Shown here in pieces: positions 3,089 through 62,298 of a stretch of DNA of 64,000 bases. The DNA comes from an uncultured Saprospiraceae bacterium. Lineage in GTDB: Bacteria > Bacteroidota > Bacteroidia > Chitinophagales > Saprospiraceae. The notes under the pieces were generated by a model that was not told where the DNA came from, did not search any database, and was given only the letters and a program-made list of their open reading frames with translations. Each line of letters opens with the position of its first letter. Within the stretch, counting starts at the first letter, position 1. The position numbers and the translations under genes were made by a program. The DNA is taken from assembly GCA_938001865.1 (NCBI GenBank), contig CALLAW010000021.1:1-64000 (forward strand), read 5' to 3'.

Positions 3089-3792
3089 TATTTGATGATT
3101 GACTTGAGAGCTTCGTCCACATCTGCTCGGAGTCTATAATTGGGGTCGTAGTGTACGTACTTGATTGTGTGATCTTGACCTATCATGTAAGTCGCAGGGA
3201 CTGGTAGGTACGGATTAGTATCATCATTTCTCGTCTGGATGTAGTCTCCCTTATAATTATACACCTTTTCATTGTATTCATCAGTTACACGGAAGAATAC
3301 TTTATAGTCTTTCATGGCTACATGGTCTATATCATATAATATCGGAAAGGTAATCTCATACTCTTCGGATAGTGCCTTGGAATACTGCTGTGTCTGCGGA
3401 CTGATTGCAATGACACTTGTGCTGCTAGTATTACTGATCTCATTGATCTTATCCTGGAACTCTGCGAGGTGCTTGGTACAATATGGGCACCAATCTGCCC
3501 GATAAAATACGAGCAGTACTGGTCCTTTTTTTAGTGTTTCGTAGAGTGAGACTTTATTACCGTTTTCGTCATCTAAGTTGATGTCTGGTGCTTTGTCTCC
3601 TACCTTGAGACCACCTAAGATATTCCCCTCATAATTGGCAATACCATACTGAGTTAAGTCTTCTCTTTCGGTGTCTTGTGTAGGAGTTTCCATTGAGGAT
3701 TTTTCTGTTTTTACTGAAGCTTTATTACCCTCACTACATGAGACTAAAACTCCCAATACGAGCAAACTCAGAAGAGTGATTGACTTTTGCAT
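3088..3792 (-). CDS. Thioredoxin-fold peroxiredoxin-like lipoprotein
   Basis: 234 residues. A lipoprotein signal peptide ends at the lipobox VLVSC (Cys19). The rest is an AhpC/TSA-type thioredoxin fold: a VGDKAPDINL entry strand at about 64-73, the redox motif WCPYC at 101-105 after FYRAD, and a downstream strand with the cis-Pro region VPATYMIG. The CxxC motif suggests a thiol-disulfide oxidoreductase or PrxQ-like peroxidase acting in the periplasm and anchored to a membrane. It is the first gene of a two-gene unit with the SecD-head-like protein, overlapping by one base. A TATCTTTG -7 box lies 18 bases upstream of the start. Confidence 0.85.
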   Translation of the reverse strand: MQKSITLLSLLVLGVLVSCSEGNKASVKTEKSSMETPTQDTEREDLTQYGIANYEGNILGGLKVGDKAPDINLDDENGNKVSLYETLKKGPVLLVFYRADWCPYCTKHLAEFQDKINEISNTSSTSVIAISPQTQQYSKALSEEYEITFPILYDIDHVAMKDYKVFFRVTDEYNEKVYNYKGDYIQTRNDDTNPYLPVPATYMIGQDHTIKYVHYDPNYRLRADVDEALKSIIK

Positions 3793-4093
3793 ATCTGACT
3801 GTTTTGTGTCAAAGATACCAGTGACTCATCAAAAAATAACAGATAGGAGAGAAAAGTGAAGCAATATTGATCTGATACTTCATCCCGACCAATCAGAGAG
3901 ATGCGGCGAATATGCCCGAATTTTTATCTCATCAATAAATCATTTACTGAACAGTCAAAATCCATCCTCCACATAATCCTAGCTTTAATCAAGTTAAGCC
4001 AAAGTTAATCATGGCGTTGACATGGAGATTATTTGGTTATAACTCTCTGATTGTGAGATATAGTACTACTTTTGCGGCTTAGAAATTACACCT
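3793..4093. promoter_or_regulatory. Divergent intergenic region with -7 boxes for the lipoprotein gene and typA
   Basis: No coding sequence seen. On the minus strand TATCTTTG (plus-strand 3810-3817) is a Bacteroidota -7 box for the thioredoxin-fold gene. On the plus strand TACTTTTG at 4067-4074 is a -7 box 19 bases before the typA ATG. Neither has a convincing -33 TTG at 19-21 bases. Confidence 0.5.
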
Positions 4094-5890
4094 ATGCAAA
4101 AAATTAAGAATATTGCCATCATTGCCCACGTCGATCATGGTAAGACCACACTCGTAGATAAGATGCTCCTCGCGGGTAAGCTCTTTGGAGATCATGAGAC
4201 TCCAGGTGAGTTAATCATGGATAACAATGACCTCGAGAGAGAGAGAGGAATTACCATCTTAGCTAAGAATGTCTCTGTCAAGTACAAGGATCATAAGATC
4301 AACATCATAGATACTCCTGGTCACGCCGACTTCGGTGGTGAAGTAGAGAGAGTATTGAATATGGCAGATGGAGTCGTCCTTCTCGTAGATGCATTCGAGG
4401 GACCAATGCCTCAGACTAGATTCGTCCTCCAGAAGGCAATCGAACTTGACCTCAAAGTCATCGTAGTCGTCAACAAAGTAGATAAAGAAAACTGTACACC
4501 TGATGAGGCGGTCGATAAGGTATTTGACCTCATGTTTAGCCTAGATGCATCAGAAGAACAACTCGACTTCCCTACTGTATTTGGATCAGCGAAATTTGGC
4601 TGGATGGGTCCAGATCATGCTACTCCGACTGATAATATCACTTACCTGATGGATCAGATCATCGAGCATGTCCCATACCCTAAGGTCGACGAAGGAACTC
4701 CTCAACTCCTCATTACTTCGCTTGACTTCTCATCATTCAAAGGAAGAATTGCTATCGGTAAGCTCCGAAGAGGGACCTTGACTGATAACCAACAAGTCTC
4801 ACTTTGTAAGAGAGATGGGAGTATCGTCAAGACAAAGATCAAAGACCTCTACACATTTGAAGGATTCAACAAAATAAAGTCCAAAGAGGTAAATGCTGGT
4901 GATATCTGTGCTATCAATGGTCTAGAAGGCTTCGATATCGGAGATACCGTTGCTGACTTCGAAAATCCAGAAGCACTTGAGACTATCAAAATAGATGAAC
5001 CCACGATGTCAATGGTATTCTCGATCAATGACTCTCCATTCTTTGGTAAGGAAGGAAAGTTCGTAACATCGAGACACATTAAAGAGAGATTAGAAAAAGA
5101 ACTCGAGAAGAATCTTGCTCTCCGTGTAGAACCAGGTGCCACTGCAGACACATTTACCGTATACGGTAGAGGAGTACTCCACCTCTCTGTACTGATCGAG
5201 ACTATGCGAAGAGAAGGATACGAGCTCCAGATCGGACAACCACAAGTCATCTTCAAAGAGATAGATGGTCGGAAGTGTGAGCCAGTAGAGTTCCTTACGG
5301 TTGACCTCCCTACTGATCTCTCAGGTAAGGCCATAGAGTCAGTCACTCAGCGTAAAGGTGAGATGCTCACGATGGTGCAGAAAGGTGATAGGACAGTCAT
5401 CGAATTCCATATCCCATCAAGAGGGATCATCGGATTGCGGACATATATGATGACTGCTACTGCTGGTCAAGCCATCATGTCTCACAGATACCTTGAGTAC
5501 CAACCATACAAAGGTGAGATCTCTGGACGTATCAACGGATCACTGATCAGTATGGAGATGGGCAAAGCCATCCCTTACTCTCTCAACAATCTCCAAGATA
5601 GAGGAAAGTTCTTCGTAGAGCCTAATGAAGCAATCTATGAAGGTCAAGTAATCGGTGAGAATACGAGACCAATGGACATCGCAATCAACGTAACTAAGAC
5701 GAAGAAGATGTCTAACATGAGATCTTCTGGCGCTGATGCCAAGGTCAAATTAGCTCCACCTATCATCTTTACCCTTGAGGAAGCTCTCGAGTATATCCAA
5801 TCAGATGAGTATGTAGAGGTGACACCAGAGAGTCTTAGATTGAGAAAGATCCTTCTCAAAGAACATGACAGAAAGAGAGCAAGCAGATAA
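4094..5890 (+). CDS. typA: Translational GTPase TypA/BipA
   Basis: Ribosome-binding GTPase of the elongation factor family that assists 50S assembly and growth under stress or low temperature. At 598 residues the length is normal. The G domain starts at once: G1 AHVDHGKTT at 11-19, G3 DTPGHADFGGEV and G4 NKVDK. EF-G-like domains II, III and V follow, and a BipA-specific C-terminal domain ends in basic residues (KEHDRKRASR). It stands alone with its own -7 box upstream and a strong terminator 30 bases downstream. It is the cytosolic housekeeping form and nothing is missing. Confidence 0.97.
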   Translation: MQKIKNIAIIAHVDHGKTTLVDKMLLAGKLFGDHETPGELIMDNNDLERERGITILAKNVSVKYKDHKINIIDTPGHADFGGEVERVLNMADGVVLLVDAFEGPMPQTRFVLQKAIELDLKVIVVVNKVDKENCTPDEAVDKVFDLMFSLDASEEQLDFPTVFGSAKFGWMGPDHATPTDNITYLMDQIIEHVPYPKVDEGTPQLLITSLDFSSFKGRIAIGKLRRGTLTDNQQVSLCKRDGSIVKTKIKDLYTFEGFNKIKSKEVNAGDICAINGLEGFDIGDTVADFENPEALETIKIDEPTMSMVFSINDSPFFGKEGKFVTSRHIKERLEKELEKNLALRVEPGATADTFTVYGRGVLHLSVLIETMRREGYELQIGQPQVIFKEIDGRKCEPVEFLTVDLPTDLSGKAIESVTQRKGEMLTMVQKGDRTVIEFHIPSRGIIGLRTYMMTATAGQAIMSHRYLEYQPYKGEISGRINGSLISMEMGKAIPYSLNNLQDRGKFFVEPNEAIYEGQVIGENTRPMDIAINVTKTKKMSNMRSSGADAKVKLAPPIIFTLEEALEYIQSDEYVEVTPESLRLRKILLKEHDRKRASR

Positions 5891-50529: not shown

Positions 50530-53500
50530 GTGAGTAAGAGCAGTTACGAGTTATTAATACAAAGATTGGATCAATTCATACGGAAGTTTTATCTCAATAA
50601 GGTGATTCGGGGTACACTCTATTCGATCGGGCTGATCTTAGCGTTGTTTCTATTATTCAGCTTATTAGAGCATCAGTTTTACTTCGAGAAGAATATTCGT
50701 AAGGTGATGTTTTTCTCATTCATCGGTACGAGTGTCATCGCATTGGGCATCTGGATATTCGATCCACTCCTCAAGTACTTCCGCCTCGGCAAGAGGATCA
50801 GCCATCCACAGGCTGCGGATATCATTGGTAATCACTTCGTCGATGTCAAAGATAAGCTCCTCAATATCCTTCAGCTCAAGAGCCAAAGTGGAGGGAGTAA
50901 GATTAACTCTGACTTGATCGAGGCGAGTATCGAGCAGAAGACTGACGGACTCAAGTTGGTCCCCTTCAGGTCAGCCATAGATCTTACATATAATAAGAAG
51001 TATGCTAAGTTTGCATTGCCTCCTCTACTCATCTTACTTGGTCTCTTATTCGGTGCACCATCACTCATCAAGGAGAGTACTCACCGTATCATCAATAATG
51101 ACAAAGAATTTGAGAAGGCTGCACCATTTCACTTCCTGATGGAACATGATGAGATAGAGGTACTCCAGTCAGAGGATGTCTCCATTACAGTCAAGATAGA
51201 TGGGACTACCCTTCCGGAAAATGTATTCGTAGATCTGGACGAGATCCAATACGAATTGAAGAAAATCGATAGAGATATCTTCACCTATACATTTAAGAAT
51301 GTGCAGAAGGACACCAAGTTTAGACTCTTCTCAGGTGAGTTCTACTCTACTGAGAAGAAGATCAAAGTCTTGCCAAAGCCTAGTATCGAAGACTTCACTA
51401 TGACGCTTGACTATCCGAGTTACACTGGTCGGAGGGATGAGACTATCAGCAATATCGGTGATGCCTATGTACCTGAGGGTACTCTCATCAAGTGGACTTA
51501 CGCCACACAGCATACTGACAACATTACTCTGCGATTTAACTCTAATAATGTTACTAAGACATTTGACGAAAGTCGGAAGAATACCTTCAGCACGTCTCAG
51601 CGTATCATGAAGAGTGATCTCTATACGATCTCCATCGCTAATGCTTATGTCATAGAGCCTGACTCATCCGTGTATACTCTCAATGTGGCTCCTGATAATT
51701 ATCCAACCATCACTGCAGAAGAGTTCGTGGATAGTACTATCAATCAAGTCAAATACTATGTGGGTACAGCATCAGATGATTACGGTCTCACTCATCTCTC
51801 GTATCACTATACAATCACCAATGCCAAAGGACTACAGAAGGTGAGTAATAAAGTGCCAATCCCTAAGTCCCCAGGTACCGAATGGACGTATGAGTATGTA
51901 CTCGATATCAGACAGTATGATATGCAACCTGGTGATAAGATCTCATATTACTTCGAGGTGGCTGATAATGATGCAATCAATGGAAGTAAGACATCTAAGA
52001 CACAAGTCATTACATTTGCCAAGCCTACTCTAGAAGAGTTCGAAGAAGAAGAAGACCTCAATGAAGAGGAAGTCAAGGACAAAGTCGAACAAGCAATCAA
52101 AGAGTCTAAAAAACTCAAGGACGAAATCCGAAAAATGAAGGAAAGACTCCTCGAAAAGAAAGAACTCAGCTGGCAAGAACAAAAAGAACTCGAAAAACTC
52201 CTCGAGAAGCAAAAAGAAATAGAAAAAATGCTTCAAGAGGCTAAAGACGCCTTCCAAAAAAATCTCGATAAACAAGACGAGTTCAATAAGCCCGAAGAAA
52301 AAATACAAGAAAAGCAGGAACAGATCAACGAAATGTTCGAAGAGGTAATGGACCAAGAGATGAAAGATCTCCTCGAACAGATCGAAGAACTCATGCAAGA
52401 ACTCAACAAAGATGAGATGATGGAATCTCTCGAAGAGTTCGAAATGCAAGAAGAAATGCAAGAAATGGAGATGGATAGACTCCAAGAAATGTTCAAGCAA
52501 CTTGAATTTGAGAAGGAAATGAACGAACTTATGGAAAAGTTGGAAAATCTTGCAGAAAAACAAGAGGATCTCGCTAAAGAAACCGAAGAAAAAAAGAAAC
52601 CCTCAGACCAACTCAAGAAAGAACAAGAAAAGGTCAACGAAGAATTCGAAAAACTTAAAGAAGAACTCGAAAAACTCGCTGAAGAAAATAAAGAACTCGA
52701 ATATCCCAAAAAACTCGACGAGGAACAGATGGAGCAAGACTCCGAAGAAGTACAAGAAGAACTCGAAAAATCAGAGGAACAATTAGACAAGAAAGAAAAC
52801 TCTGATGCGAGTAAAAGCCAGAAAAAAGCCGCTGGCAAAATGAAGAAGATGGCAGGAAATTTGCAAGCTTCTATGGAGAGTGGAGAGGAAGAGGCACACG
52901 AAGAAGATATGAAAGCTCTGCGCCAACTCTTAGAGAATCTAGTGACTCTCTCTTACGAAGAAGAGAATCTCATCGAAGAACTCAAGACTAGCGTCACTAA
53001 TACTCCTAGGTATGTAGAGCACACAAAATATCAGTTCAAACTTAAGGAAGATTTCGAACTGATAAGCGATAGTCTCTATGCCCTTACCAAGAGGATAGAT
53101 AAGATAGAGAGCTTCGTCACAGAGAAACTCGTAGAGACCGAAAGAAGAATGGAGAAATCCATCGACGACCTCGAAAATCGCAAGAAAGCTGATGCCAGTA
53201 TCAGTCAGAGAAGAGTAATGACTAATCTCAATGACCTTGCACTCATGTTAGCTGAGTCCATGCAAGACATGCAAGAGCAGATGGGTATGAGCATGCCAGG
53301 CAATCAACAATGCAATAAGCCTGGAGGGAAGGGTAAAGGGAAATCTGGCAAACAACCCTCTGACAAAATCTCTGAAGGACAGAAAAACCTTGGAGAAGGA
53401 CTCAAGAAAATGAGTGAGAAAGCAGGCAAAAAAGGGAAAGATGGCAACTCCTCTAAAGACTTTGCAGAAGCGGCAGCCAAGCAAGCTGCTCTCCGTAAAG

Positions 53501-53874
53501 CACTAGAAGATGCCAAGAAAGATCTCCAAGAACAAGGACAAGGAGGTCAAGAACTACAGGAAATCATCGACTTGATGAATAAAATAGAAGAGGATCTCGT
53601 CAACAAGAAGCTCAACAATGAGTTACTTAAAAGACAACAGGACATAGAGACTAGATTGCTCAAAGCCGAAAAGGCAGATCGTAAAAGAGAAAAAGACAAC
53701 AAAAGAAAAGGTGAGACAGCAGAGCAAATCATCAGAGAACTGCCCCCAAACCTTCAAGAATATTTAAAACAAAAAGAATCAGAAGTTGAACTCTACAAAA
53801 AAGTCTCTCCAGATGTCTATCCTCACTATCAGAAAATGATAGAAGAGTATTACAATGCATTGAAGAGTAACTAA
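50530..53874 (+). CDS. DUF4175 large membrane-anchored coiled-coil protein
   Basis: 1114 residues, GTG start. Two or three membrane segments in the first 170 residues, beta domains (about 200-490), then an extreme Glu/Lys/Gln-rich helical region (about 500-800) of coiled coils with Met-rich parts, and a Gly-rich linker (about 910-950) before a final coiled coil. This is the DUF4175 family of Bacteroidota, of unknown function; the architecture suggests a periplasm-spanning or envelope scaffold. Charge bias makes long antisense ORFs appear here, which are not genes. RsbW-like ATPase and ybeY follow. Confidence 0.87.
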   Translation: MSKSSYELLIQRLDQFIRKFYLNKVIRGTLYSIGLILALFLLFSLLEHQFYFEKNIRKVMFFSFIGTSVIALGIWIFDPLLKYFRLGKRISHPQAADIIGNHFVDVKDKLLNILQLKSQSGGSKINSDLIEASIEQKTDGLKLVPFRSAIDLTYNKKYAKFALPPLLILLGLLFGAPSLIKESTHRIINNDKEFEKAAPFHFLMEHDEIEVLQSEDVSITVKIDGTTLPENVFVDLDEIQYELKKIDRDIFTYTFKNVQKDTKFRLFSGEFYSTEKKIKVLPKPSIEDFTMTLDYPSYTGRRDETISNIGDAYVPEGTLIKWTYATQHTDNITLRFNSNNVTKTFDESRKNTFSTSQRIMKSDLYTISIANAYVIEPDSSVYTLNVAPDNYPTITAEEFVDSTINQVKYYVGTASDDYGLTHLSYHYTITNAKGLQKVSNKVPIPKSPGTEWTYEYVLDIRQYDMQPGDKISYYFEVADNDAINGSKTSKTQVITFAKPTLEEFEEEEDLNEEEVKDKVEQAIKESKKLKDEIRKMKERLLEKKELSWQEQKELEKLLEKQKEIEKMLQEAKDAFQKNLDKQDEFNKPEEKIQEKQEQINEMFEEVMDQEMKDLLEQIEELMQELNKDEMMESLEEFEMQEEMQEMEMDRLQEMFKQLEFEKEMNELMEKLENLAEKQEDLAKETEEKKKPSDQLKKEQEKVNEEFEKLKEELEKLAEENKELEYPKKLDEEQMEQDSEEVQEELEKSEEQLDKKENSDASKSQKKAAGKMKKMAGNLQASMESGEEEAHEEDMKALRQLLENLVTLSYEEENLIEELKTSVTNTPRYVEHTKYQFKLKEDFELISDSLYALTKRIDKIESFVTEKLVETERRMEKSIDDLENRKKADASISQRRVMTNLNDLALMLAESMQDMQEQMGMSMPGNQQCNKPGGKGKGKSGKQPSDKISEGQKNLGEGLKKMSEKAGKKGKDGNSSKDFAEAAAKQAALRKALEDAKKDLQEQGQGGQELQEIIDLMNKIEEDLVNKKLNNELLKRQQDIETRLLKAEKADRKREKDNKRKGETAEQIIRELPPNLQEYLKQKESEVELYKKVSPDVYPHYQKMIEEYYNALKSN

Positions 53875-53907: not shown

Positions 53908-54324
53908 GTGAATAACGTGTCAAAGGATATCATCTTTAAAATAACATCTTGTCAAAGCCAGATCGGTAAACTGGAAGAGTACGTCTCTCAGATAAGTAAG
54001 GAGTTTGACATAGATGACACTAAGTATCCAGATATACTTATCAGTCTCACAGAGGCTGTCAACAATGCGATCATCCACGGCAACTCTAGTGATGTGTCTA
54101 AGTGTGTTGACATCATGTGTAAGTGCAAAGAGCAAAATCTCACATTTACTATTAGTGATCAGGGAGATGGCTTCGATCCAGAGCAGATCAATAATCCTCT
54201 TGATGAGACCAACATAGAGCTGGAGGGCGGTAGAGGTGTACTCATCATGAAGAGCCTCTGCGATGAAGTTCAATACAAAAATGAAGGTCGTACCGTTGAA
54301 ATGACCTTCAACATCAAAAAGTGA
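53908..54324 (+). CDS. RsbW-type ATP-binding regulator
   Basis: 138 residues, GTG start (an alternative GTG is nine bases on). A GHKL ATPase of the anti-sigma/serine kinase group: N-box EAVNNAIIHGN, G1 DQGDGFDP, G2 GGRGVLIMKSL. It probably phosphorylates an anti-anti-sigma protein or binds a sigma factor; its partner is not adjacent. A SpoIIE-like phosphatase may begin at 63.7 kb, but the link is a guess. Its stop overlaps the ybeY start (GTGA). Confidence 0.88.
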   Translation: MNNVSKDIIFKITSCQSQIGKLEEYVSQISKEFDIDDTKYPDILISLTEAVNNAIIHGNSSDVSKCVDIMCKCKEQNLTFTISDQGDGFDPEQINNPLDETNIELEGGRGVLIMKSLCDEVQYKNEGRTVEMTFNIKK

Positions 54325-54752
54325 CAAATCACATAGATTTCTTTACTGAAGATACCGATTATGTGGTATCAGAGAAGAGTCTGAGACTCTGGATCACTGA
54401 GATACTTACTCAAGAGTATGATTATCAATCTTACCAAATCAATTACATCTTCTGTAGTGATGATTATCTCCATACGATCAATGTAGATTATCTCAATCAT
54501 GATACATATACCGACATCATTACATTTCCCCTTGAGGTCACTGACCATCACATCAGCTCCGATATCTTCATAAGCATCCCTCGTGTCCGGGAAAATGCTA
54601 AGCAATACCTCCAATCTGAACAAGATGAACTCCTCAGGGTAATGGCACATGGACTACTCCATCTCTTCGGACTAGATGACAAAACCGATGATGACAAAGC
54701 TCTTATGCGTAAGGCAGAATCAAAGTTAATTCAACTCTATTACACTCTATAA
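54321..54752 (+). CDS. ybeY: rRNA maturation endoribonuclease YbeY
   Basis: 143 residues, GTG start overlapping the RsbW-like stop by four bases. UPF0054 zinc motif HGLLHLFGLDDKT: the usual third histidine of HGxxHLxGxDH is replaced by Asp/Lys, which is the form I recall for Bacteroidota. Central YTDIITFPLE strand present. It helps mature 16S rRNA 3' ends and is involved in 70S quality control. Confidence 0.92.
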   Translation: MTNHIDFFTEDTDYVVSEKSLRLWITEILTQEYDYQSYQINYIFCSDDYLHTINVDYLNHDTYTDIITFPLEVTDHHISSDIFISIPRVRENAKQYLQSEQDELLRVMAHGLLHLFGLDDKTDDDKALMRKAESKLIQLYYTL

Positions 54753-55078
54753 CCTGATAGACTCTCTGCTATTAAAGGTCATTGTGTCTCCCAATGACAG
54801 CTAATACGGACCTCCTTCTCTAATACTCTCACATCCGTGCTATTTGACTCTAATTGAGATGACAATCCAAACAACTGAGCTAAGTCCACCTAGATATAGA
54901 AACAATTTTATATTTGTTTATTTGATAATATATTGATTAATAAGTAAGTAATTACATTTTACATAAAATTAAATTTCGTTTTTTATTGACAATCTCTCTA
55001 ATTAGGATTAACTTAGTTTTAAGCATTTGTAATTGATCTAGGTCAATTACTATTTTATCAACTTCCAAATTTCCTATC
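54753..55078. other. AT-rich intergenic region with palindrome
   Basis: No clear gene. Hairpin GTCATTG (54778-54784)/CAATGAC (54792-54798) just after ybeY, without a T-run. At 55029-55050 a perfect 8-base inverted repeat, GTAATTGA-N6-TCAATTAC, looks like an operator for the downstream kinase unit. Confidence 0.5.
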
Positions 55079-55273
55079 ATGAAAGACTTCCAACTTTCTA
55101 CAGCAATTCCTATTGCCGTAACCAAACTTCGTTACTTTGTTAATCCAAAGTATCCTTCAATCTATCAGATTTCTTTTTATTACTACTGCTTCTTTATTTC
55201 GAAGATAATCATTGCATTTGCTGATAAGTGTAGCTCATCATTTTCTAACCTCAAAACAGATGAGCCATGCTAG
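55079..55273 (+). CDS. Possible 64-residue protein overlapping the kinase start
   Basis: MKDFQLSTAIPIAVTKLRYF and onward, with a hydrophobic middle (YYYCFFISKIIIAFA). No family. Its stop (55271-55273) lies in the first codons of the kinase gene (ATGCTAG), a coupling pattern. It follows the palindrome region; codon use is not distinctive. May be a chance ORF. Confidence 0.3.
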   Translation: MKDFQLSTAIPIAVTKLRYFVNPKYPSIYQISFYYYCFFISKIIIAFADKCSSSFSNLKTDEPC

Positions 55274-56298
55274 TAAAGAACAAAAAAGAAATTATTACCT
55301 GCTTGATGTTTATTTTGCTCTACTTGGGTATCACCAATGCTTATACACATCATCTCTTAGAGTTCTCGATTGCCTTACTTGGAACTACTCTGATTATGAT
55401 GTTGGGGCTCATACTGATCAATAATCGTATCGTAGCCAATCTCACATATATCTTATGTACTGTGTCCAATATACTCATCTTGAATATCTATGGAGGACTT
55501 GCTATCCAATATCTCCTGCTTTCAATTGTAATCCTATTTGGTCTCAATCAGATGAAGTGCAAAGTGATCAGATCTAAAGAATGTATAGAAAAGGAAAAGA
55601 AGAAATTCGAATCTAGAAGTAAAGAAATAGAACTCTTTGCACAAGTGATGACACATGACATCAAGATGCCATTGCAAACAATTGCGAGCATCTGTAGACT
55701 ATTGAGAAAAGACATTGCAAAAGGTAAGATCAATACGACACATCATTCGATGATGAAGCATGTCGTTGCGAGTGTAGAGATGGCCCAAGATCTTGTCAAT
55801 AGTTTGACACAAAAGTTTGAAGAAGACTATGCAGAAGGAAGTGTCAAAAAACTCAATCTTCAGACCTTGATCCAAGAGACTGCAGCTACACTCAAGTATC
55901 AGATCAAGAAGACAAATACTGAACTCATCACAGATAACCTAGGAGAAGTGATGGGAGATGAGAGAGCTCTCAAGACAGTATTCTATAATCTGATCAACAA
56001 TGCGATAAAATATCAGCCCAAAGATGCGAGCCATCCAATAATTAGTATCTCTCATACAGTACAGGATCAGATGCATGTCATCCATGTAAAAGACAATGGC
56101 ATAGGGATAAATGAAGGACTAGTAAGCACAATCTTTGAGCCATTCAAAAAGCTTCACAGCAAATCAAAATACTCGGGTTCTGGACTAGGTCTCTTCCTCT
56201 GTAAGAGTATAGTAGAGAAACATCGCGGGACGATCTCTGCCACGTCTCAACTCGGATTGGGTACTGATATCAGCATCATGTTACCTCAAATGCATTAG
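55267..56298 (+). CDS. Membrane sensor histidine kinase
   Basis: 343 residues. Three or four membrane segments (about 8-100) without an extracellular sensor domain; a helical signalling part; H-box with phospho-accepting His130 in MTHDIKMPLQ; N-box VFYNLINNAIKYQ; G1 VKDNGIGINEG, F-box FEPFKKLHSKSKYSGSGLGL. No response regulator is adjacent, so it is an orphan. The receptor function is likely through the membrane segments. Ends at the parS region. Confidence 0.92.
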   Translation: MLVKNKKEIITCLMFILLYLGITNAYTHHLLEFSIALLGTTLIMMLGLILINNRIVANLTYILCTVSNILILNIYGGLAIQYLLLSIVILFGLNQMKCKVIRSKECIEKEKKKFESRSKEIELFAQVMTHDIKMPLQTIASICRLLRKDIAKGKINTTHHSMMKHVVASVEMAQDLVNSLTQKFEEDYAEGSVKKLNLQTLIQETAATLKYQIKKTNTELITDNLGEVMGDERALKTVFYNLINNAIKYQPKDASHPIISISHTVQDQMHVIHVKDNGIGINEGLVSTIFEPFKKLHSKSKYSGSGLGLFLCKSIVEKHRGTISATSQLGLGTDISIMLPQMH

Positions 56299-56384
56299 AG
56301 TGGAAGTAATTGGAGCCTCAATCAATCTACATAGCATGCTCTTCAATAATAACTAGAATGCACAACAGCTCTAGAACTAGTAAG

Positions 56385-56421
56385 CACAAGTTGTTCCACG
56401 TGGAACAACTTGTGTTTTTTT
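56385..56421 (+). terminator. 30-base palindrome with T-run, parS inside a terminator
   Basis: A perfect 30-base palindrome at 56385-56414 centred on CACGTG, followed by TTTTTTT (56415-56421). It ends the kinase transcript, and its 16-base core (56392-56407) is a perfect parS TGTTCCACGTGGAACA. Confidence 0.85.
56392..56407. other. parS site 1
   Basis: TGTTCCACGTGGAACA, perfect palindromic ParB-binding consensus (Pseudomonas-type parS; B. subtilis type differs at two positions). Confidence 0.8.
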
Positions 56422-56857
56422 GTTTCATCCTACTAACCATCATTTAAAGAAAGACGCTGTAACAGTGTCAAAAACGGCCATGAGTGATTCTCCATAGCTT
56501 ATGGTCTGTCATACTCTCTCATACATCTGATATAGGACAAGGATAACCTAATTGAAGTGGCGATTTCTCAATCTCATATCACTGACTTTCTGTAAACCAA
56601 TATCAACATAGGATAAATGACTGCATAGGAAGAATCTCTACTTATGGACAATCCCTGATAGTAGAGCAATCAAAACCATGCCTTAGATTACCTCTTTTAG
56701 TCACCTGCAACTCACTTACAAAACTGATATATCCAGCAAAGAGTGTACATTTACTTATCAGACAATATACTGCTACAACACTCTTGGTTCACAAAGAATG
56801 ACATATCTAATACCCAGAGAACTTCATCATCAATTTGAATCACACCCAATGATGGCA

Positions 56858-56873
56858 TGTTCCACGTGGAACC
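56858..56873. other. parS site 2
   Basis: TGTTCCACGTGGAACC, one base off the perfect palindrome at the edge. Confidence 0.78.
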
Positions 56874-56902
56874 AACCGTAATCTGCTATCAATCCCCGTG
56901 AC

Positions 56903-56918
56903 TGTTCCACGTGGAACA
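56903..56918. other. parS site 3
   Basis: TGTTCCACGTGGAACA, identical to site 1, 45 bases from site 2 start to start. Confidence 0.8.
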
Positions 56919-57112
56919 ATTATTAGTATCGGCTGTTTATACTGGTTCGCTATACGTCTGCAAGCACTATCCATACTATTCATCACAAGAAATACCATTA
57001 GTTAATCTCAATAATACTCAGATCTTCTCACCACTCCCTCCATCATAAGAGGAAAGCCTAGTTGAATCAATTTCCCTATCTTTGCTGCTATACTTCAGAA
57101 TAAACACACCTC

Positions 57113-59413
57113 ATGACAAGATATCACATTACCCTATTACTCGTACTGTCAATATTCTCTACTACTCTAGTCCTTGCACAAGAGAACACGAATACCAATA
57201 AGTTTAGACAGTTAGAACAAGATCTCCCGACTCCTAATAACTATAGAACAGGCTCTGGAGCACCTGGACACCAATACTGGCAGCAAAAAGTTGATTACAA
57301 AATGTCAGTAGAAATCAATGACAAAAAACAAACCCTTACTGGAAGCGAGACGATTACTTATACCAATAATTCTCCTGATAGACTCGACTACCTTTGGCTC
57401 CAGCTAGATCAAAATGTCAGAGCAACTGACTCAGATAAATATAAAATCTCTACATCCACTCTCTCTGATGATATGTCTACGAATACCCTCAAAAACTTAG
57501 AACCTTGGTTTGAAGGTGGATTCAATATCACATCAGTGACGTCTGGTGGTCAAGATATCGACTATACAATCAACAAAACAATGATGAGAATAGACCTGGA
57601 TACTCCTCTCTATACAGGAGATACCTATACTTTCTCAATTGATTGGTGGTATAATATCAACGATAGAATGCAGATAGGCGGGAGATCAGGTTACGAATAC
57701 TTCGAAGAAAACGATAACTACCTCTATACCATAGCTCAATACTTCCCGAGACTCTGTAAGTATAATGATATCTATGGATGGCAAAACAAGCAATTTCTTG
57801 GAAGGGGAGAATTTACACTAGAGTTTGGAGATTATGAAGTATCCATCACTGTACCAAGTGATCACCTTGTCGCTTCCACAGGGACACTTCTCAACCCAGA
57901 AGATGTCCTCACATCAGAACAAAGGAATAGACTAGAACAAGCAAGAGAGGAATATGTCGACCCTGTCCTTATCGTAACTCAAGATGAAGCAGAGAAAGCT
58001 GAAAAGTCTAAGTCTAAAAGGAGTAAAACCTGGACCTTCCAAGCAGAGAATATAAGAGACTTTGCATTCGCTTCATCACGAAAGTTTATCTGGGACGCTA
58101 TGGCAGTGAAGCAGTCAGATGGCAGTATCGTGATGGCGATGTCTATGTATCCTAAGGAAGGTAATCCCCTCTGGGAACTGTATAGCACCAAAGCTGTAGC
58201 GCATACACTCAAGTGGTACTCTCACTATACTTTTGACTACCCCTACCCAGTCGCTTGGTCTATTAACTCTAAGCGTATAGGGATGGAGTACCCAATGATT
58301 TGCTTCAATTATGGTAGGGTAGAAGAGGATGGGACATATAGCAAGAGAACTAAGTACGGCATGATCTCAGTCATCATACACGAGGTGGGACACAACTACT
58401 TCCCTATGATTGTTAACTCTGATGAGAGACAATGGACATGGATGGACGAAGGGCTCAATACATTTGTCCAGTACCTCGCAGAGCAACAGTGGTCACGAAA
58501 CTATCCATCTAGAAGAGGGCAAGCTCATAAGATCGTCGACTATATGAAAGGTGATAAGTCTAATATCTCTCCTATCATGACCAACTCTGAATCTATCCAC
58601 CAATTCGGTAATAATGCATATGGCAAACCAGCTACTGCTCTTAATATCCTCAGAGAGACAGTCATGGGCAGGGAATTATTTGATCATGCATTTAAGACTT
58701 ACTCTAAGCGTTGGATGTTTAAGCATCCGGCACCTGCTGATTTCTTCAGGACTATGGAAGATGCATCAGCTGTAGACTTAGATTGGTTTTGGAGAGGATG
58801 GTTCTATACCACTGATCATGTAGATATCGCAATAGATAATGTCAGTCACTCTACGCCGAGTAGCTTTGACCCAGACCTAGAGAAGTCAGGAGCCATATCA
58901 CCTCCTGATCGTATAGATATCACTACACTCCGTAATCAGACAGCAATCAAGGAAACTTACGAAGATCAAGATAGTAGACTCATAGACTTCTACTCTACTT
59001 ACGATCCAAACAAGGTGTACGATTTCGAACGAGAAGAGTACAAAGCGAAGAAGAAAAACTTAACAGATGCTGAAAAAACAGCACTCAAATCTAATAAGCA
59101 TTACTACCAAATAGACTTCAGTAATATTGGAGGGCTTGTGATGCCAATCATAGTAGAATTTAAGTATCAAGATAACTCAACAGAAATCTATAGAATACCA
59201 GCAGAGATATGGAATAAAAATTCTGAAAAAGTATCTAAGGTATTCGTCACTTCTAAAGTAGTCTCTCAAATCACATTAGATCCCTATCTCGAGACAGCTG
59301 ATACTGATAGAGATAACAATTATTATCCATCACAATCGGAGATGTCAAGGTTTGATGTCTTCGAATCTAAGCAACGATCTAGACCTAATCTTATGCAAAA
59401 GACTAAAAAATAA
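57113..59413 (+). CDS. M1-family zinc aminopeptidase-like protein
   Basis: 766 residues. Signal peptide (about 1-22), N-terminal beta domain, zinc site HEVGH (423-427) with the distal Glu446 in WMDEGLN, i.e. HEXXH-x18-E of gluzincins; GxMEN-type recognition is altered (IGMEYPMICFNY). C-terminal part is beta-rich. Probably periplasmic or cell surface; it digests peptides from N-termini. TATCTTTG box upstream; the -33 is unclear. Confidence 0.93.
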   Translation: MTRYHITLLLVLSIFSTTLVLAQENTNTNKFRQLEQDLPTPNNYRTGSGAPGHQYWQQKVDYKMSVEINDKKQTLTGSETITYTNNSPDRLDYLWLQLDQNVRATDSDKYKISTSTLSDDMSTNTLKNLEPWFEGGFNITSVTSGGQDIDYTINKTMMRIDLDTPLYTGDTYTFSIDWWYNINDRMQIGGRSGYEYFEENDNYLYTIAQYFPRLCKYNDIYGWQNKQFLGRGEFTLEFGDYEVSITVPSDHLVASTGTLLNPEDVLTSEQRNRLEQAREEYVDPVLIVTQDEAEKAEKSKSKRSKTWTFQAENIRDFAFASSRKFIWDAMAVKQSDGSIVMAMSMYPKEGNPLWELYSTKAVAHTLKWYSHYTFDYPYPVAWSINSKRIGMEYPMICFNYGRVEEDGTYSKRTKYGMISVIIHEVGHNYFPMIVNSDERQWTWMDEGLNTFVQYLAEQQWSRNYPSRRGQAHKIVDYMKGDKSNISPIMTNSESIHQFGNNAYGKPATALNILRETVMGRELFDHAFKTYSKRWMFKHPAPADFFRTMEDASAVDLDWFWRGWFYTTDHVDIAIDNVSHSTPSSFDPDLEKSGAISPPDRIDITTLRNQTAIKETYEDQDSRLIDFYSTYDPNKVYDFEREEYKAKKKNLTDAEKTALKSNKHYYQIDFSNIGGLVMPIIVEFKYQDNSTEIYRIPAEIWNKNSEKVSKVFVTSKVVSQITLDPYLETADTDRDNNYYPSQSEMSRFDVFESKQRSRPNLMQKTKK

Positions 59414-60348: not shown

Positions 60349-61404
60349 TCACTGATTACGAATGATGGAGTGATAACGTATACTATGCCATACAGCGACA
60401 TAACTCCCGATCAGAATCAATGCTACTGCCTGATGTAATACTCCGAGACCAAGAGGGATATTCCCTTTGCAACTCACCACTGTAAGTATACCAACAATTA
60501 TCTGTATTCCTAATAGCATAGCAAATATCTTGAATCTACGCTTGGAGGTATCAATTCCAATCTGATGATAAGCTCTCCATGCTAGATACACTACCACAGC
60601 TAACAAGTAAGCAGTACCTCTATGCAGAAATTGAATAAGTGCTGGTGCAAAAGCTGATCGTTCATAATACTCAAGATTAGAGATACTCCACATCTCTCCA
60701 CGCGTAAGTATCTCTGGTATCAACTCTCCACCCATATCTGGCCACGTAGGATATACGAGACCTGCTCTCATACCACTCATGATACCACCAAGTACGATCT
60801 GTACAGCTAATAGTATTCCCAAACCGATAAATATCCGAGGGATCTGATGCCTTGTAAGACTTGTCTCCTTATCTAATTGACTATACAATGTAGCTCTCAC
60901 CAAGAAAGCAAACGTCGCTACGGCTATAGAGAGGTGGATAGATAACTTATAAGCATTGACCCAGGGTCTGTCAATCAATCCACTAGCTACCATGATCCAA
61001 CCAAAAATGGCTGCCAACATTGCAAACCCAATAACAGGAGCCATCTTAACCCATAGTCTTCGATCCATCCATTTACGTACAGTGAATATCACAGCAGGTA
61101 TCAGAAACGCCAATCCCATCATCCTTGCCCACAATCTGTGGAAGTACTCCCAGAAATAGATAAACTTAAAATCTGAGAGACTCATCCCTTCATTGAGTAG
61201 ATCGTACTGTGGTGTAGCCTTATACTTATCAAACTCTACATCCCAACTCGCCGCATCGAGTGGTGGCAGTACACCAGTGACGATTTCCCACTTAGTGATA
61301 CTCAATCCAGAACCAGTGATACGAGTGATACCTCCGATGATGACTTGCATGAAGAGCAAGAAGCATCCGAGCATTAACCAATATTGAATTTGTCTTGTGT
61401 ACAT
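60349..61404 (-). CDS. ctaA: Heme A synthase (COX15/CtaA)
   Basis: 351 residues, eight membrane helices of the COX15/CtaA family. Heme-ligand histidines fall in EYFHRLWARMMG, YKLSIHLSIA, FLHRGTAYLLA and GVLHQAVALI, the four expected sites. GGITRITGSGLSITKW is the N-terminal signature. It oxidises heme O to heme A for cytochrome oxidase. Its ATG faces the candidate oriC region. Confidence 0.96.
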   Translation of the reverse strand: MYTRQIQYWLMLGCFLLFMQVIIGGITRITGSGLSITKWEIVTGVLPPLDAASWDVEFDKYKATPQYDLLNEGMSLSDFKFIYFWEYFHRLWARMMGLAFLIPAVIFTVRKWMDRRLWVKMAPVIGFAMLAAIFGWIMVASGLIDRPWVNAYKLSIHLSIAVATFAFLVRATLYSQLDKETSLTRHQIPRIFIGLGILLAVQIVLGGIMSGMRAGLVYPTWPDMGGELIPEILTRGEMWSISNLEYYERSAFAPALIQFLHRGTAYLLAVVVYLAWRAYHQIGIDTSKRRFKIFAMLLGIQIIVGILTVVSCKGNIPLGLGVLHQAVALILIGSYVAVWHSIRYHSIIRNQ

Positions 61405-61851
61405 AGATTTCTAAACCGATGTGAAAGTATTAAGTTTTATCGAAAGAGAGCTTTCCACAAATCAACCGAAGTGTTATTATAAGTATTACTTAATTATTTA
61501 AAAAGAAAACCTATTACTTATTATAAGTACCTGTTAGAATGTGAAGAAAAGGCAATTCACACATAATCTCATAGATATTAACAGACTCAGATCATCAGAG
61601 ATTATGAACTCACTATGATTACTCACAATCTGTGAAGAGTATCTATTGTGAATAAGATCGTGTGTATAAGCTCAATGTGAAATGAGCAAAAAGATGAGTT
61701 ACCAAACATGAAATAAAGCTGTAATATATAAGAAGTTGATAATTTTTAAGACCTTGTGAATTATCAAATCTTTACACCACTTACTAACAGGCAATATCGC
61801 TTCTGATAAAGGAGTATAACGAGCAAATTGTCCCAGTACTCTGAGTAAAAA
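61405..61851. other. Candidate chromosomal origin (oriC)
   Basis: 447 bases, very AT-rich, between divergent genes. DnaA boxes (TTATNCACA): perfect TTATTCACA on the minus strand (plus 61647-61655) and TTATACACA (plus 61661-61669); with one mismatch at 61540-61548, 61619-61627 and 61755-61763; two weaker at 61553 and 61631. Runs such as 61471-61530 and 61721-61755 are almost pure A/T and could melt first. parS sites lie 4.7 kb away. dtd and a MazG-like gene follow. Confidence 0.65.
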
Positions 61852-62298
61852 ATGAGAGCAGTCATACAACGTGTCACCAACGCTAGCTTGTCAGTGGATG
61901 ATAAGTTAGTCAGTACGATAGACCAAGGCTTACTCGTCTACCTAGGTATCGGAATAGATGATGAGGATACTGATAGAGACTGGCTGATCAATAAGATAGT
62001 CAATATGCGTATCTTCAGTGATGGAGAAGGGAAGATGAATCTCTCAGTACAGGAGATACACGGTCAAGTCTTAGTTGTCAGTCAGTTTACCCTTTACGCA
62101 AGTACTAAGAAAGGAAATAGACCGAGCTATCTCAGATCAGCCAAGCCAGATATCGCTATCCCTCAGTATGAGCAATTCTTAGCTAATCTCAAAAAAATTG
62201 TCCCGACACAGTCGGGGATATTTGGTGCTGATATGCAAGTAACTTATACCAATGATGGTCCGATAACGATCACTATAGACAGCAGGCACAAAGAGTAA
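61852..62298 (+). CDS. dtd: D-aminoacyl-tRNA deacylase
   Basis: 148 residues, the usual Dtd. Motifs SQFTLYAST (about 82-90) and NDGPITI (about 136-142, cis-Pro loop) are the conserved active-site pair. It removes D-amino acids from mischarged tRNA. The next gene starts five bases after the stop. Confidence 0.97.
   Translation: MRAVIQRVTNASLSVDDKLVSTIDQGLLVYLGIGIDDEDTDRDWLINKIVNMRIFSDGEGKMNLSVQEIHGQVLVVSQFTLYASTKKGNRPSYLRSAKPDIAIPQYEQFLANLKKIVPTQSGIFGADMQVTYTNDGPITITIDSRHKE

Follow-up and report, generated by a model that had tools for sequence, protein, structure and literature searches.

The ParABS segregation systems of Bacillus subtilis, Pseudomonas aeruginosa and Caulobacter combine a 16-base palindromic site (parS) in a tight origin-proximal cluster, a parA-parB operon and SMC, and the genome treated here appears likewise equipped. 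As is common, parS here probably lies only a few thousand bases from the replication start. A Hi-C study of twelve gut bacteria, among them two Bacteroidetes, reports that parS clusters mark the origin, and that the origin is not systematically found with dnaA (PMC10197239). The principle is therefore not new.

The window, by which we mean the whole stretch of DNA analysed (64,000 bases from the draft genome of an uncultured Saprospiraceae bacterium), contains exactly three parS matches at up to three mismatches. Site 1 (TGTTCCACGTGGAACA, 56392..56407) and site 3 (again TGTTCCACGTGGAACA, 56903..56918) are exact, and site 2 (TGTTCCACGTGGAACC, 56858..56873) has a single mismatch, C for A at the outer (last) base, with the core GTTCCACGTGGAAC intact; none is assigned to a strand. 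An earlier note on this DNA had pointed to these three sites, held them unlikely to have arisen by chance, and placed them in non-coding DNA 3′ of a kinase gene. All of this was confirmed: 100 dinucleotide-preserving shuffles of the window gave a mean of 0.12 matches and never more than one at the same tolerance, and no ORF of at least 80 amino acids runs across the sites. The three sites span 527 bases, and the draft genome (3,583,248 bases in 108 contigs, completeness 100) holds no others at up to two mismatches, while a control search with the pattern read backward found one match in the assembly. Chance origin is rejected on the shuffles together with this uniqueness.

The earlier note had named scattered further sites and a missing parB as grounds against a centromere; all three genomic sites lie here, and parB is present with parA directly upstream. 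A TIGR00180 profile search of the genome (E up to 0.001) found one ParB-family gene, on contig C27, scoring 179.3 bits, above the curated cut-off of the profile. It forms an operon with parA, both on the minus strand of locus L004 (ParA 2160-2918, ParB 1216-2127), and its product of 303 amino acids, directly behind the 252-residue ParA, has the Pfam domains ParB_N, HTH_ParB and ParB_C; ParA matches AAA_31. ParB also contains GERRYRAS and ENIQR, which we take to be CTP-site motifs. SMC is encoded on contig C33 (916 bits), whereas the Hi-C study reports no known condensin in its two gut Bacteroidetes (PMC10197239).

The HTH domains of Noc and ParB are closely related, so that the palindromes might instead be the binding sites (NBS) of a Noc-type paralogue, or might serve some other CACGTG-binding regulator. 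The solved chains closest to the protein by sequence are ParB and Spo0J, and then Noc. Four positions tell ParB and Noc apart (Caulobacter 173, 179, 184 and 201), and by our reading of the alignments with ParB and Noc chains they are R, Y, K and G here, with R173 in GKKRSTV and G201 in LSMGHAR; this R and G pair is described as absolutely conserved in extant ParB (PMC7383237). These are the parS-type specificity residues and not the Q173 and R201 of Noc, and a Noc identity is rejected on them and on the single ParB-family gene in the genome; we give this whole alternative very little probability. The three palindromes very probably form the parS cluster by which a ParABS system segregates the chromosome, and the cluster, judged from sequence, is an ordinary chromosomal centromere.

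The cluster lies in an intergenic region of 814 bases delimited from the ORF list (56299..57112, no strand), and a scan of 54700-57300 gave no Rfam match at gathering threshold. Upstream of site 1 is a histidine kinase gene (55267..56298, plus strand; PF02518, E 5.9e-26, with HisKA below cut-off), and on the other side an M1-family peptidase gene (57113..59413, plus strand; PF01433), a parS neighbor in many relatives. The left flank of the window is of a type found across the phylum, with a DUF4175 gene, an RsbW-like gene and ybeY (54321..54752, plus strand; PF02130), the last a neighbor of parS in other Bacteroidota too. The right flank is of a family type: M1 peptidase, hydrolase, cox15/ctaA (60349..61404, minus strand; PF02628, E 2.2e-80), dtd (61852..62298, plus strand; PF02580, E 3.8e-55) and mazG. 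The DUF4175 gene region (50530-53874) is strongly A-rich on the plus strand (AT skew 0.21-0.24), and its product has a long stretch rich in Glu and Lys.

Across the family (order Saprospirales) parS sites are as a rule tightly clustered. Exact-core sites (GTTYCACGTGRAAC) were found in 58 of 64 family genomes (31 of 32 and 27 of 32), with one to four sites each, the other six having none, and in every one of the 58 except G066 the sites are confined to one contig; the backward-read control matched in four of the 64. The 64, out of 100 family genomes, were mostly ones whose sites a looser search at up to two mismatches had left unlisted. That looser search matched in 97 of the 100 and is given no weight, because its control also matched in 66. 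parB was found in 94 of the 100 genomes, 93 times above cut-off. In Bacteroidota as a whole, 103 of 109 genomes have exact-core parS, with one to nine sites each.

The gene neighbors recur as well. Of 87 family loci that have a strict site, 41 carry the M1 peptidase beside it, within about 1.5 kb on either side, and among 41 loci of twenty kb we scored M1 peptidase in 25, cox15 in 27, dtd in 22 and ybeY in 21. Among named relatives of the M1 peptidase, the six best come from four MAGs of Saprospiraceae, from Neolewinella aquimaris and from a Lewinella. Strict parS sites occur within the flanks covered in 12 of 80 named M1-peptidase loci, labelled Saprospiraceae (7), Neolewinella, Lewinella, Phaeodactylibacter, Chitinophagales and Bacteroidota; a thirteenth (L118) has just one weaker site, located within the gene, and the other 67 have none. 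Two loci labelled Saprospiraceae, L110 and L123 (the latter covered on its downstream side only), had no parS. Outside the family, ybeY neighbors parS in 12 of 28 sampled phylum loci.

In the window's own genome parAB is on a different contig from the parS cluster, and this remoteness would suit sites brought in by an integrated plasmid or mobile element with its own partition system. The flanking genes are however of housekeeping type and are met again beside parS in other members of the family, clusters of this kind are present in other family genomes, and in the two best-assembled relatives described below parB is just as far from parS. A mobile-element origin is rejected on these three grounds, and its probability is practically negligible.

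Several variations on parS were seen in other genomes. At least four Bacteroidota loci (L260, L269, L270 and L276) have two parS sites about 1.9 kb apart; in L260, mnmG starts beside one of them, on the side facing the other. In L068 a parS copy at 4589 lies within the threonine synthase coding sequence (3637-4938), and the flanks of the sites at L066 3902, L030 1153 and L237 1501 resemble those of the L068 site; in such loci a centromere site inside a protein-coding gene seems to have been kept. Three family genomes (G027, G060 and G064) encode a good ParB with no parS match even at two mismatches, and G042 carries TGTTCTACGTAGAACA; these four are possibly diverged ParB-parS pairs, or else reflect draft gaps.

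The earlier note had also proposed that this centromere-like cluster is close to the origin, and the proposal is supported through two relatives, extending to the window's own draft genome by synteny. The best-assembled relatives are G057 (two contigs, of which C1 has 4.35 Mb) and G062 (one contig of 7.51 Mb). Their parS sites are at 2.0396-2.0453 Mb and at 2.3638 Mb, respectively, and their parB genes at 0.78 and 5.79 Mb; dnaA is at the first bases of both records, so that both genes are more than 1 Mb from parS. Cumulative GC skew, followed over continuous stretches of 440-470 kb, has its minimum at 2,052,643 in G057 and at 2,349,196 in G062, which is 7.4-13.0 kb and 14.6 kb from parS, or about 0.2-0.3% of the chromosome. 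Sparse genome-wide sampling in 20-kb stretches agrees: in G057 each of the 11 samples up to parS has a negative GC skew, and each of the 9 after it a positive one. The G062 samples are negative in the seven before parS and positive in 8 of 10 from parS to 5.6 Mb, the exceptions at 4.0 and 5.2 Mb being slightly negative; past 5.6 Mb the skew is negative again. With the skew minimum 2.05 Mb (G057) and 2.35 Mb (G062) from dnaA, we rejected dnaA as a marker of the origin.

In both relatives the skew minimum is just upstream of cox15. That of G057 falls within a cluster of seven DnaA boxes (starts 2,052,345-2,052,657); near that of G062 we found no cluster of three DnaA boxes within 600 bases, and two boxes are 1.5 kb off. 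A further stretch of G057, 2,044,900-2,045,400 (L160 12900-13400), has several TTTTCCACA/TGTGGAAA words and four DnaA boxes interleaved with parS copies, some 7 kb from the main DnaA-box cluster. For statistics on DnaA boxes we took the window and 40 relatives with long contigs, and scored the 27 loci (26 relatives and the window) with cox15 in reach, leaving unscored the 14 of the 41 twenty-kb loci where it was out of reach. The 700 bases upstream of cox15 in these 27 loci (18.9 kb together) have 87 DnaA-box-like words at up to one mismatch where shuffles give 6.3, and perfect boxes number 15 against 0.2; two or more of the words at up to one mismatch are present in 22 of the 27. For dtd, which often borders the same gap as cox15, the count is 40 against 5.4 in shuffles, while other genes gave 1 against 5.2 (M1 peptidase), 2 against 2.9 (RsbW-like), 7 against 4.2 (ybeY) and 16 against 4.3 (abhydrolase).

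We predict, from synteny with the skew minima of the two relatives, that oriC of the window is the divergent cox15/dtd gap (61405..61851, no strand, 30% GC), about 4.5 kb from parS site 3. The gap contains two DnaA-box-like words on the minus strand, TTATTCACA (61647..61655) and TTATACACA (61661..61669), each one mismatch from TTATCCACA, a weak signal and in number no greater than in three other stretches of the window. The genome as a whole has 47 matches to TTATCCACA (25 for the backward-word control) with no tight cluster, the nearest pair being at about 1.9 kb, and the intergenic parS region has no DnaA-box-like word with fewer than two mismatches. The contig's own skew minimum, at 66,946, is some 5 kb past the predicted oriC; it is weak, and tells us little because it is near the contig end.

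Site 1 is set apart from the other two by its surroundings, a feature that the earlier note did not mention, nor did it name the likely oriC in the same window. It is the center of a perfect palindrome of 30 bases (56385-56414) followed by seven T residues (56415-56421), and the whole element (56385..56421, plus strand) is a predicted intrinsic terminator of the kinase gene by both RNA folding and a terminator scan. The fold of 56375-56430 has -24.2 kcal/mol (z -6.43), with none of 200 shuffles as good, and the scan found 16 pairs and a T-rich tail. The palindrome begins 86 bases past the kinase stop codon, and a stem-loop with a T-tract 3′ of a same-strand gene is the shape of an intrinsic terminator.

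Such a hairpin invites the reading that the palindromes are merely transcription terminators or a hairpin repeat, unconnected to ParB. Besides the long stem and T7 tail at site 1, it draws on the scan's weak flag at site 3 (six pairs, tail ATTATTAGTA) and on the four candidates it finds over 2.1 kb, where shuffles give 1.2. The perfect palindromes at sites 2 and 3 however reach only 7 and 8 bases per side, barely past the parS core, and all genomic copies fall within the one stretch of 527 bases. Of the family parS sites, moreover, 174 of 189 keep the core with no extended stem, and 61 of 189 are inside ORFs of more than 150 codons. We regard a terminator role alone as very improbable, and the three sites as parS, one of which may have a second use.

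We define an extended stem as a score of at least 8 beyond the 14-base core, and before counting left out sites less than 30 bases from a locus end, identical copies, and sites without the strict core. By this measure 14 of 188 family sites have an extended stem, against a mean of 0.65 and a maximum of 4 in 2000 re-pairings of flanks; one further locus and the scoring of both strands bring this to 15 of 189 sites, spread over 14 of 97 loci. A T-run of at least four at the stem end is present at 8 of the 15 extended sites, against 20 of the 174 others (Fisher p 2.8e-4). Fourteen of the 15 follow the stop of an ORF on the same strand within 100 bases, compared with 58 of 92 plain intergenic sites (p 0.019), and all 15 against 60 of 92 if an overlap of up to 15 bases is allowed (p 0.005); the ORFs for this test, of at least 90 codons, were called mechanically. 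On the strand of that ORF, 12 of the 15 have a T-run of at least four within 30 bases, against 17 of 60 (p 6e-4). All of these p-values treat sites as independent. The outer arm sequences vary between loci, and because they differ so, independent origins of the arms are suggested. A phylum sample of 53 sites in 28 loci (one locus per genome, for 28 of the 109 genomes searched, one of them from the window's own family) agrees weakly, with two extended stems against 0.14 expected and a maximum of 2 in 1000 re-pairings.

The extended palindrome at site 1 might also be no terminator at all, being due to chance or favoring a cruciform or ParB binding, as a symmetric DNA element may be extended with no role in RNA. 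Seven of the 15 extended sites do have no T-run of at least four at the stem end, and three of these (L067, the L196 site at 1549, and L223) also lack one anywhere within 30 bases along the neighboring gene's strand. Ten extended sites have an upstream stop on a single strand only; the T-run at the stem end is the longer one on the strand of the stop in five of them, equal in two and shorter in three. Against this, extended stems are far more numerous than the re-pairing null allows, the locus-specific arms speak against an extended ParB site, and nearly all extended sites closely follow a same-strand stop. We consider this alternative unlikely, though a good deal less so than the other rivals considered here. 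On present evidence the hairpin and U-tract of site 1 probably end transcription of the kinase gene, the same palindrome being parS in DNA and a terminator stem in RNA, and such double use of one parS site is moderately supported. It is nearly an even call, tilting slightly to the negative, that this holds across the family, with the centromere repeatedly recruited as a terminator whose inner stem is parS and whose outer arms, in many cases accompanied by a T-tract, evolved separately in different genera. Among the matches listed in a literature search covering few subscription journals, titles and the openings of abstracts did not describe parS inside a terminator.

Computation shows the sites and that they are unique, the operon of parA and parB, the specificity residues of ParB, conservation in the family, the nearness of parS to the origin in two relatives, and the hairpin; that in this organism ParB binds, the chromosome is segregated, SMC is loaded, oriC is active and transcription ends at the hairpin is our inference. 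One study describes CTP-dependent ParB loading, sliding and DNA condensation (PMC10681803). Here ParB of this genome, whose gene is on a different contig, would load at the cluster as a CTP-dependent clamp and spread over the DNA flanking parS; through ParB, ParA would move the newly copied origin region, and ParB at the cluster could load SMC. The parS sites would then be the grip by which the chromosome copies are drawn apart before division. Replication would start in the gap between cox15 and dtd, about 4.5 kb from the cluster, and the hairpin at site 1 would double as the transcription stop of the kinase gene. Overlap of parS with a terminator may keep RNA polymerase out of the ParB loading zone beside the origin. 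A need for such shielding of parS from transcription is the less favored because ParB clusters are reported not to halt RNA polymerase in vitro (PMC10681803).

A little-studied bacterial family gains with this locus a mapped centromere and a predicted origin, and dnaA is found in a further case to fail as a marker of the origin. If the overlap of parS and terminator is real, a segregation site can insulate itself from transcription. Compared with the ParABS systems of B. subtilis, P. aeruginosa and Caulobacter, the difference is that parB and dnaA in the relatives G057 and G062 are more than 1 Mb from parS. The element at site 1 resembles other intrinsic (Rho-independent) terminators in its stem, 4-base loop and T7 tail 3′ of a same-strand gene, and is unlike the usual ones in that its inner stem is a parS site. 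The uptake-sequence terminators of Neisseria and Haemophilus are another instance of a DNA motif with a different job used as a terminator stem. Those uptake sequences are present in many dispersed copies, whereas the sites used here are single centromere sites.
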